Part shown: positions 15,449 through 19,400 of the stretch, one piece after another
How the letters are laid out: each line of letters begins with the position of its first letter
Position numbering within the stretch: position 1 is the first letter of the stretch
Assembly (NCBI RefSeq): GCF_014202295.1
Contig: NZ_JACHGM010000001.1
Coordinates: 1 to 64,000, forward strand
Source of the DNA: Borreliella afzelii
GTDB taxonomy: Bacteria > Spirochaetota > Spirochaetia > Borreliales > Borreliaceae
Reading direction: 5' to 3'
Length of the DNA: 64,000 nucleotides
The notes under the pieces: generated by a model
What the model was told of the DNA's origin: nothing
Seen by the model: only the letters and a program-made list of their open reading frames with translations
Databases searched by the model: none
Position numbers and translations under genes: made by a program

Positions 15449-17158
15449 ATGCAAAAACTCGAAGCCAAAAGAAAATTAAAAAATTACATTCTTCTTGAAG
15501 AAGATATATATTTTCAAGAAGAAGCAATAAAAATTCAAAAAACAAATAATGAGACAGAAATTCTAAACAGATTTTACAAAGATCTAGAATTTGGCACTGC
15601 TGGAATGAGGGGAGTCATTGGAGCTGGAACATGCTATATAAACACATATAATGTAAAAAAAATAAGCCAAGGAATATGTAACTATGTACTTAAAATAAAT
15701 AAAACCCCCAAAGTTGCAATAAGTTATGATTCAAGATATTTTTCAAAAGAATTTGCTTACCATGCTGCTCAAATTTTTGCCTCAAATAATTTTGAAACAT
15801 ATATATACAAAAACTTAAGACCCACCCCCCAACTATCTTATACAATAAGAAAATTTGATTGTGATGTTGGCGTTATGATAACAGCAAGTCATAATTCAAA
15901 AGAATATAACGGCTATAAAGCATATTGGAAAGGTGGAATTCAAATGATGCCACCTCATGACGCACTAATAACTAATGAAATTAAAAAGGTAAAAAATATA
16001 ATAAATACAATTACCATAAAAGAAGGAATTGAAAAAAAGATTATCAAAGAGCTCGATAATGAGATCGACAAAGAGTACGTAAAAACAATAAACAAAGAAT
16101 TCCCTGATTTTGAAAATAACAGTAAAAAAACAAACTTAAAAGTAGCCTATACAGCGCTACATGGCACCGGTGGAACCATAATAAAAAAACTCTTTACAAA
16201 TAGTAAAGTACAGCTTTTTTTGGAAAAAAGCCAAATAATGCCAAACCCTGAATTTCCAACAATAAACTATCCTAATCCAGAAAAAAAAACATCAATGATT
16301 AAAGTAATAGAGCTTGCAAAAAAAGAAGATTGTGACATTGCCCTTGCAACAGATCCAGACGCTGACAGAATAGGGGTTGCATTCAAAGATCAAAACGAAT
16401 GGATATTCTTAAACGGCAATCAAATATCATGCATTTTAATGAACTATATACTCTCAAAAGAAACGAATCCTAAAAATACATTTGTAATATCATCGTTTGT
16501 AACAACACAAATGCTAGAAAAAATTGCCCAAAAATATGGTTCTCGAATTTTTAGAACTTATACAGGATTTAAATGGATAGGAAGCTTAATTGATGAAATG
16601 GAAAAAAACGAACCAAATAAAAAATTTGCTTTTGCATGCGAAGAAAGTCATGGATATCTAATAGGAAGAAAAGTTAGAGATAAGGATGCATTTTCAGCTA
16701 TAAAAGGGATTTGTTCTTTAATGCTTGATTTAAAAGCTAAAAACCAAACAATTAAGGATTACCTTGAAAAGATATATAAAGAATTCGGATATTATGAAGA
16801 ATTTAATATAGAAAAAAACTTTGAAGGAGCTAATGGAGAAATTCAAAGAGAAGCACTAATGTCAAAGCTAAGAAAAGAACAAAAAATGCAATTCGCAGGA
16901 ATTAAAATAATTGAAAAGTTAGACTATCAAGCTCTTAAAAAGATTAACTTCAAAAAAGAAATTTCAGAAATCAAAGAATACAAATACCCTACAAACGCAA
17001 TAAAATTTATACTTGAAAACGAAATTGTAATAACCGTAAGACCTTCTGGAACAGAACCAAAAATTAAATTTTACATATCTGTAAAACTCGAGTATAAGGA
17101 AAAACATAAAATATTTGATATAATAAATGCAATAAAGATGGAGATAAAAAAATATTAA
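15449..17158 (+). CDS. Phosphoglucomutase/phosphomannomutase family protein
   Basis: This alpha-D-phosphohexomutase interconverts sugar 1- and 6-phosphates in the cytosol. The active-site phosphoserine loop is TASHNSKEYNGYK (about residues 148-160), the metal-binding loop is DPDADRIG (near 310), the sugar-binding loop is CEESHGYLIG (near 400), and the phosphate-binding loop is RPSGTEPKIKFY near the C-terminus. The 569-residue length and order fit the longer PGM2-like branch rather than short ManB or GlmM. Preferred sugar cannot be told from sequence. The ATG has AAAGGA 8 nt upstream. The stop codon overlaps the apparent ATT start of the Clp gene by one base, suggesting coupling. Confidence 0.9.
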   Translation: MQKLEAKRKLKNYILLEEDIYFQEEAIKIQKTNNETEILNRFYKDLEFGTAGMRGVIGAGTCYINTYNVKKISQGICNYVLKINKTPKVAISYDSRYFSKEFAYHAAQIFASNNFETYIYKNLRPTPQLSYTIRKFDCDVGVMITASHNSKEYNGYKAYWKGGIQMMPPHDALITNEIKKVKNIINTITIKEGIEKKIIKELDNEIDKEYVKTINKEFPDFENNSKKTNLKVAYTALHGTGGTIIKKLFTNSKVQLFLEKSQIMPNPEFPTINYPNPEKKTSMIKVIELAKKEDCDIALATDPDADRIGVAFKDQNEWIFLNGNQISCILMNYILSKETNPKNTFVISSFVTTQMLEKIAQKYGSRIFRTYTGFKWIGSLIDEMEKNEPNKKFAFACEESHGYLIGRKVRDKDAFSAIKGICSLMLDLKAKNQTIKDYLEKIYKEFGYYEEFNIEKNFEGANGEIQREALMSKLRKEQKMQFAGIKIIEKLDYQALKKINFKKEISEIKEYKYPTNAIKFILENEIVITVRPSGTEPKIKFYISVKLEYKEKHKIFDIINAIKMEIKKY

Positions 17159-19400
17159 CATAACAGAAAATTTAATAAATTTAGTAGAAATAGATTCAAA
17201 AGAAATTGCAAGAAAAAATAAAAATAAAGAAGTTTCAATTTGGCATCTACTAATGTCTATAATTACCACTCCCAAAAAATCTGAAATAAAATTTATAGAT
17301 ACCAAAACTCTAAAAAACATTAAACAGGAAGTTCTATTTGAAATAGATAAATTAGAGAAAATTTTAATAGAAAAAAATGAAATAATTATTCCAAAAATCA
17401 ATAAAGAAATTTTTGCTCTCATAAAAGAAGCTAAAAAGGAGTTTAAATCCAAACCCTTAATAGGAGCAAAAGAAATTTTTTATCAAATATTAAAAAATAA
17501 AAAACTTCTAAAAAAGTATAAACTAAGCAAATCTACCTTCGACTTCAAAGATCAAAATGTATTAGAATACATGGAAAAAAATAAAATAAGATTAATTGAA
17601 ACCTACAAAGAATTTGATGAAGAAATACGACTTGAAAATGAACACTTTGAAATTGAAAAGTATGTCAAAAATTTAACAGCGCTTGCAAAAAATAAAAAAT
17701 TAGATCCTTTGATTGGAAGAGAAGCAGAGATTAAAACTCTTGCAAATATACTCTTGAGAAGAAACAAAAATAGCGCAATGCTAATAGGTGAGCCTGGCGT
17801 AGGAAAAACAGCAATAGTTGAAGGACTTGCATCAAGCATAGTACAAAAAAAAATAAGCAGCAAACTACAAGACAAAACAATTTTAATGCTTAAAGTTTCA
17901 AACTTGGTATCAGGAACAAAATATAGAGGTGAATTTGAAGACCGTTTAAATAATATAATTAAGTATATTGAAAAAAATAAAAACACAATAATATTTATTG
18001 ACGAAATACATACTTTAATAGGAGCTGGAAATTCCGAAGGAGCTCTTGATGCATCAAATATATTAAAACCATCACTTTCTAGAGCTGAAATACAAATTAT
18101 TGGAGCAACCACTTATAATGAATACCGAAAATATATTTCAAAAGACAAAGCATTTGCCAGAAGATTCCAAACAATTACTGTAAGAGAGCCTAATGAAAAA
18201 GATACACTAAAAATAATCAAAAATATTGCAAAAAATTTCGAAGACTATCATGGAGTAATTTATGAAAAAAGTGCGCTTACAAATATAGTAAAGCTTTCAT
18301 CTAAATATCTAATAAATAAAAGATTTCCAGATAAAGCAATAGATATAATAGACATTGCTGGTGCAATTAAAAAAGAAGAACTTACAAAAGACAATGTTGT
18401 AACATCAGATGATATACAAAAAGCAATAAATGAAATACTATCTATTAAAACAACAAATAACATAAAAGAAGAAATTTCAGAATTAAAAGAAATAGAGAGT
18501 AAAATCAATCAAAAAGTGATCGGACAAAAACATGCAGTAGGCGAGCTTATTAAAGAAATTATTAAAGTCAAACTTGGACTCAATGACGATTCTAAACCTT
18601 TAACTTCAATATTATTAATAGGATCAAATGGATGTGGAAAAACCACTTTAATTGATGAACTATCTAAAAAAATCATTAAGGATCAAAATTCAGTATTAAA
18701 ACTAGATATGTCAGATTACAAAGAGGAAAACTCTATTTCAAAATTAATTGGCACAAATCCAGGATACGTGGGTTACTCTGATGGAGGCATTCTGACAAAC
18801 AAATTAAAACATTCATTTGAAACTTTAATATTGTTTGAAAACATTGAAAATGCCCACAACTCTATATTAAACTTAATAAGTCGAATGCTTGAAAACGGAG
18901 AAATTATTGATAGCAAAGAGGACAAAATACTATTTAAAAACACAATTATAATAATGACTACAAATGTTGGATCTAGAATGCTTCTTGGAGAGAAGAATAT
19001 TGGATTCAACAAAAATCAACAAACAAACGCAGAGACAAAAACCTTTAAAGAAGAAATAAACCAAGATCTTGAAAAAAGATTCAAGTTGTCCCTTTTAGAC
19101 AGAATTCAAAAAAAAATTATCCTAAATGTCCTTACAAAAGACAACGTAGAAGAAATTTGTAGCAACTACTTAAATACCCTTAAAACAAAATTTTACTCTA
19201 AAGGAATTGAAATAGAAATAAAAAAAGATATTAACAAATTCATAACCACAAAATACTATAAAAAAAATTCAGGAGCAAGAAGCGTAATTGCTGCAATAAA
19301 GGAAAAAATAGAAGAAAATATTATCACTAAAATAGCTGAGAATCAAAATATAAATAAAATAACAATTTATTTAGAAAAAGAAGAAATAATAATAGAATAA
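17154..19400 (+). CDS. clpC: Clp-type AAA+ unfoldase (ClpA/ClpC class), apparent ATT start
   Basis: This is a Hsp100 ATPase that would unfold substrates for ClpP. The open frame runs upstream of its first ATG (17253), and those upstream codons encode a good Clp N-domain ([20 protein letters not shown], then [12 protein letters not shown]). No ATG, GTG or TTG precedes it, but ATT at 17154 follows GGAG by 10 nt and overlaps the previous TAA by one base. I therefore start it there (748 residues; numbering from this ATT). D1 has Walker A GEPGVGKT at 212-219 and Walker [11 protein letters not shown]. No ClpC/ClpB middle domain is present, so the layout is ClpA-like; the symbol follows historical Borrelia usage. 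D2 Walker A is GSNGCGKT at 490-497, but the Walker B acidic pair is replaced by E562-N563 ([10 protein letters not shown]). A ClpP loop IGF is present. Confidence 0.85.

Follow-up and report, generated by a model that had tools for sequence, protein, structure and literature searches.

AUU initiation codons are rare and are mostly known gene by gene. The closest described counterpart of the gene analysed here is pncA (bbe22) of Borrelia burgdorferi, which belongs to the same bacterial group, starts at AUU with a Shine-Dalgarno site upstream, and is still given in databases as a protein that is too short (PMC13398362). It differs from clp in being a plasmid gene, the start of which was set by earlier experiments cited in that paper. 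The infC genes of Escherichia coli and Listeria share a conserved AUU start with clp (PMC5472188, PMC13068326), and for Listeria the starts of infC (ATT) and rnhC (ATC) are reported to be confirmed (PMC13068326). However, infC encodes a translation factor and is subject to IF3 feedback in E. coli (PMC5472188), whereas clp does not encode a translation factor.

Two further systems resemble parts of the clp arrangement. In Streptomyces, where IF3 holds down a GTC start, the sigR gene has a genus-wide non-standard start (GTC in 32 and GTT in 2 of 34) and a conserved Shine-Dalgarno site; it is distinguished by the GTC codon, a strong Shine-Dalgarno site (AGGAGGTG), and a demonstrated effect of IF3 (PMC5472188), whereas clp is known from its sequence. 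In M13 gene V–gene VII reporters, the stop and start nearly coincide and a Shine-Dalgarno site precedes the second start, as in clp, in which the coupling is read from the anatomy of the junction. A short distance between stop and start and a Shine-Dalgarno site are reported to favour re-initiation in E. coli, and extra IF3 to lower it (PMC2268962).

Structure of the junction between the upstream gene and clp

The window analysed here is a 64,000-nucleotide stretch of the chromosome contig of a Borreliella-type genome from the Lyme group of spirochetes, and the features of the junction are all on its plus strand. The upstream gene (15449..17158) is of the phosphoglucomutase/phosphomannomutase type, contains PGM_PMM domains I–IV (PF02878, PF02879, PF02880, and PF00408), and ends with TAA at positions 17156–17158. 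The clp gene (17154..19400), which we take to be BB0834, encodes a two-AAA-module ClpA/ClpC-type ATPase of 748 residues when read from ATT 17154–17156, its predicted start codon. According to the original prediction, the clp frame has no ATG, GTG, or TTG from an in-frame stop up to position 17253, and the open reading frame list and the sequence agree on this. The frame reads TAA (17145–17147), AAA, AAT, ATT (17154–17156), AAC, ATA, ACA, and GAA, and its first standard start codon is ATG codon 34 (17253..17255), which is probably an internal methionine. The distance of 35 codons from the stop to this ATG is the largest among the 41 open reading frames of at least 150 codons in the window.

The GGAG motif that had been placed 10 nt upstream of ATT is located at positions 17140–17143, within the upstream gene, and is the predicted Shine-Dalgarno site of clp. 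The predicted overlap of ATT with the preceding stop as ATTAA was also borne out; one base, T 17156, is common to ATT and to the TAA of the upstream gene. The 16S tail of the genome contains CCTCC and pairs at −6.4 kcal/mol with the 25 bases immediately 5′ of ATT. The predicted Shine-Dalgarno site is rated as modest, because 8% of 2000 random 25-mers from the window pair equally well. The spacer of 10 nt is long, which counts against initiation at ATT. The RNA structure predicted at the clp start is not unusual (z −0.59). The sixth-last codon of the upstream gene, ATG 17138–17140, overlaps the GGAG and is kept in all 36 genomes compared. The sequence ATAACAGAAAAT occurs shortly 3′ of ATT in clp (17160–17171) and also near the pncA start in L177, which is probably due to chance in A+T-rich DNA.

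Conservation of the junction in Borreliaceae

A clp orthologue was obtained from each of 36 Borreliaceae genomes, 18 from the genus of the window and 18 from a second genus. A genome search at the level of the order gave the same 36 genomes, and the DNA comparison covers Borreliaceae. The original prediction had proposed to check the conservation of ATT across Borrelia species; ATT, GGAG, and the overlap ATTAA are identical in all 36 genomes. The in-frame stop at 17145–17147 is TAA or TAG in 35 genomes. In the remaining one, L045, it is replaced by a TTG that is separated from GGAG by 1 nt and lies three codons upstream of ATT; L045 retains ATT despite this TTG. The residues encoded 5′ of ATT vary (K/R/T, N/S), whereas those encoded by codons 1–3 are invariant, with asparagine at codon 2 in every genome.

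None of the standard start codons between ATT and codon 34 is conserved over the 36 genomes, and none is present in the window. Two genomes have ATG at codon 8, and one has ATG at codon 29. TTG occurs at codon 10 in 17 genomes (the window has TTA there), at codon 32 in three, and at codon 33 in one. Codon 34 is ATG in 34 genomes, GTA in L009, and CTG in L014. Starts of clp at codons 8, 10, 29, and 34 were rejected because these codons are not conserved.

Constraint on ATT and GGAG

Because the final codon of the upstream gene and its stop coincide in part with ATT, the wobble position of this final codon is essentially the one base that can vary. The yardstick for this base was provided by T/C two-fold columns, which comprised 58 clp columns, each invariant for a residue of the class, and 16 columns of the upstream gene containing only T/C two-fold residues, taken from its last 150 codons and gapless from the 3′ end. 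A single codon is kept in none of the 58 clp columns. The wobble base is invariant in one of the 16 columns of the upstream gene, that of the last codon, which lies inside ATT, and in none of the other 15. Among the 38 invariant isoleucine columns of clp, the only one made up entirely of ATT is that of codon 1, and six columns, including that of codon 3, are ATA throughout.

The glutamate codon that forms GGAG is GAG in all 36 genomes. None of the 29 invariant glutamate columns of clp consists entirely of GAG, and eight consist entirely of GAA; of the three invariant glutamate columns of the upstream gene, only that of GGAG has a fixed codon. The 36 genomes share ancestry and are not independent, and the control columns have the same history; judged against these columns, GGAG and ATT are both under selection past the needs of the overlapping upstream protein.

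The coding stretch before the first standard start codon

Codons 2–33 of clp (17157..17252), positioned 5′ of the first standard start, are strongly conserved at the protein level. When the window was compared with the 17 other genomes of its genus, pN and pS were 0.003 and 0.213 for codons 2–33, 0.031 and 0.230 for codons 34–148, and 0.031 and 0.224 for codons 149–700. Between the genera, compared using six of the 18 loci on each side, the corresponding values were 0.109 and 0.540, 0.166 and 0.592, and 0.201 and 0.610. The 32 codons before ATG 17253 are more constrained than both later stretches, and this pattern of substitution indicates that they are coding and that coding conservation begins at ATT.

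Profiles PF00004 (AAA), PF17871 (AAA_lid_9), PF07724 (AAA_2), and PF10431 (ClpB_D2-small) match the protein above their cut-offs, and correspond to two AAA modules and a C-terminal D2 small domain. The ClpA equivalog profile TIGR02639 scores 558.2 bits and does not reach its curated cut-off of 993.15, and therefore we call the protein only ClpA/C-like. Position 11 of the ClpA profile aligns at residue 14, which places ATT within a few residues of the profile start. A Clp_N match at residues 16–38 scores 12.6 bits, under the cut-off of 20.7, and is no longer listed for a protein truncated to begin at Met 34. The AlphaFold model of the 748-residue protein, computed from an alignment of 28 rows, has mean pLDDT values of 29–60 in blocks of the first 80 residues, and was set aside because of this low confidence of the N-terminus.

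Probable initiation at ATT and alternative starts

Initiation at ATT is favoured by its conservation in 36 of 36 genomes, the selection on GGAG and ATT, the coding conservation that begins at ATT, and the precedent of the AUU start of pncA. AUU is thus likely to be the initiation codon of clp, and we assign a probability of about 0.8 to the reading that clp starts at ATT 17154–17156, where ribosomes leaving the upstream gene likely re-initiate with the aid of GGAG.

Annotated starts were compared by residue position among the best 30 of 7817 database protein matches, and none of these 30 proteins begins at the clp ATT. Sixteen begin at Met 34, six at codon 8, four at codon 10, and one each at codon 29 and codon 3 (P0004); one is a fragment, and P0003 begins three codons before ATT, at a TTG of the L045 type. 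Among the open-licence PMC papers found on Borrelia start codons and Clp proteins, pncA (AUU) and bS22 (GUG) are described, and the clp gene analysed here was not encountered. We regard the observed arrangement as real and family-wide, and the likely ATT start of clp as unannotated in the database entries compared; AUU initiation itself is already known in B. burgdorferi.

The alternative that survives best is initiation at ATA codon 3 (17160..17162) in place of ATT, which we nevertheless consider unlikely. This codon is as conserved as ATT, being ATA in all 36 genomes, and P0004 begins at its position. In Listeria reporters the strength of start codons decreases in the order ATG, ATA, ATT (PMC13068326), and the GGAG that lies 14 nt before the infC ATG in some loci (e.g. 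L067) suggests that long spacers may work. However, ATA codon 3 lies 16 nt after GGAG, and isoleucine columns that are ATA throughout are common in clp, whereas the one that is ATT throughout is unique to codon 1. Furthermore, if codons 1 and 2 were untranslated, the fixed wobble T and the asparagine of codon 2 would be left unexplained.

Slightly less probable still is a start at ATG 17253 or another standard codon in the frame, which would yield a Clp protein lacking the first part of its N-domain. In favour of this start, ATG ranks first among start codons, only two genomes lack it at codon 34, and most of the database proteins compared begin either there or, in four cases, at codon 10. The replacements in L009 and L014 speak against ATG 17253, and the patchy TTG against codon 10. 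A Shine-Dalgarno-like site was not found 4–16 nt before any ATG, GTG, or TTG in the first 120 codons of clp, and the 25 bases before ATG 17253 pair with the 16S tail at −3.2 kcal/mol, which is equalled by 46% of random 25-mers. The original prediction had named a protein beginning at this methionine as its possible refutation; with the codon missing from two genomes and the preceding 32 codons constrained, such a start was judged unlikely.

In a third alternative, the ribosome or RNA polymerase would slip near the run of seven A at the junction (17146–17152), and clp would be made as a frameshifted continuation of the upstream gene, or would be read from the conserved ATG 17138. The run is interrupted in several relatives (L012, L015, and L045–L051), and the last codon of the upstream gene, TAT or CAT, would not allow re-pairing in the +1 frame. 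On these grounds, both frameshifting and slippage at the run were rejected, and they are highly improbable. A sequencing or assembly error, which the original prediction had also raised, was ruled out and has a negligible probability, since all 36 genomes, from both genera, share the arrangement and have a clp frame free of internal stops, and no support for an error was found.

Start codons of other genes in the lineage

The infC gene begins with ATG in all 30 Borreliaceae loci examined; no locus was obtained from six of the 36 genomes. In G000:C2:246580-246786 (L067) and its relatives, GGAG is positioned up to 14 nt before this ATG, whereas infC of E. coli starts with AUU. The frame of the clp paralogue opens with an ATG in all 12 loci, and in L023 there is also a TTG one codon earlier.

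Other genes lacking a standard start at the beginning of their protein were sought by two surveys, in which open reading frames spanning the borders of 20-kb stretches were lost. In about 464 kb of the genome, the first standard start is at least 35 codons into the frame in three of 355 open reading frames, namely clp, a nanE-type gene, and a 130-codon frame that we take to be an antisense shadow. Comparison of the genome with 400 kb of G024 gave 428 pairs of open reading frames. Because short frames are mostly antisense shadows, only the 241 pairs with a query of at least 180 residues were counted. More than 20 residues aligned before the first standard start only in clp (27 of 35 identical) and nanE (25 of 32 identical); the next longest stretches were 19 residues (4 identical) and 16 residues (9 identical, in a GTG-started frame in L107).

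The nanE-type gene, encoding N-acetylmannosamine-6-phosphate 2-epimerase, is located at G000:C1:220219-220935 on the minus strand (L098:16216-16935, minus strand), is identified by PRK01130 above its cut-off, and has no standard start at the beginning of the protein. AGGAGG at this locus is followed by three consecutive ATT codons at 4, 7, and 10 nt. All 36 genomes contain an in-frame ATT 4–10 nt after an AGGAGG-like site; the spacings in L137, L143, and L145 (ATT 6, 7, and 6 nt after GGAGG) were read by eye, and 60 nt were covered. A TTG is present 0–1 nt after the site in 12 genomes, probably too close to serve as a start, and an ATG follows the site in two (L133, corresponding to G024, and L140). 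The sequence of nanE makes it one further candidate for an AUU start from the survey of about 464 kb.

A pncA-type match was present in 25 of the 36 genomes, and 25 loci were read; L184 (no match) and L181 (wrong frame) were excluded, and L192–L195 were outside the sample. In 13 Borreliella-type loci, including G000:C8:11403-11897 (L177), GGAGG is followed after 5 nt by ATT, which fits the AUU start reported for bbe22. In ten loci of the second genus, ATG is positioned before the motif. In contrast to pncA, clp has its ATT in members of the two genera alike, and this ATT overlaps the TAA of the preceding gene.

Proposed initiation mechanism and its implications

Ribosomes terminating at UAA 17156–17158 would stay bound to the mRNA, helped by GGAG 17140–17143, and would re-initiate at the AUU, so that most initiation may be coupled to the overlapping UAA. 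The initiator tRNA would read AUU despite the mismatch at the third position, and the protein would begin with Met-Asn-Ile. The weak AUU start may hold Clp synthesis low and link it to that of the upstream gene. We infer this translational coupling of clp to the upstream gene from the anatomy of the junction. A response of clp to IF3, with which the original prediction associated ATT starts, is possible. However, infC starts with ATG in all 30 loci, and therefore the classical infC feedback lends no support to control by IF3 here.

The predicted AUU start of clp, which overlaps the preceding gene, is shared by all the genomes of the family that were compared. A doubtful extension of this reading is that Borreliaceae possess a small regulon of AUU starts, comprising clp and nanE across the two genera and pncA in Borreliella, which would link the fidelity of initiation with protein unfolding, the use of amino sugars, and NAD salvage; the AUG-started infC would then leave the level of IF3 as an input that is not clamped by AUU feedback. 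Together with pncA and the nanE candidate, clp forms a small set of genes from one lineage, in which infC starts with ATG, for testing rare starts, coupling, and the effects of IF3. If clp starts at ATT, the N-terminal sequences of Clp now listed for Borreliaceae are too short.
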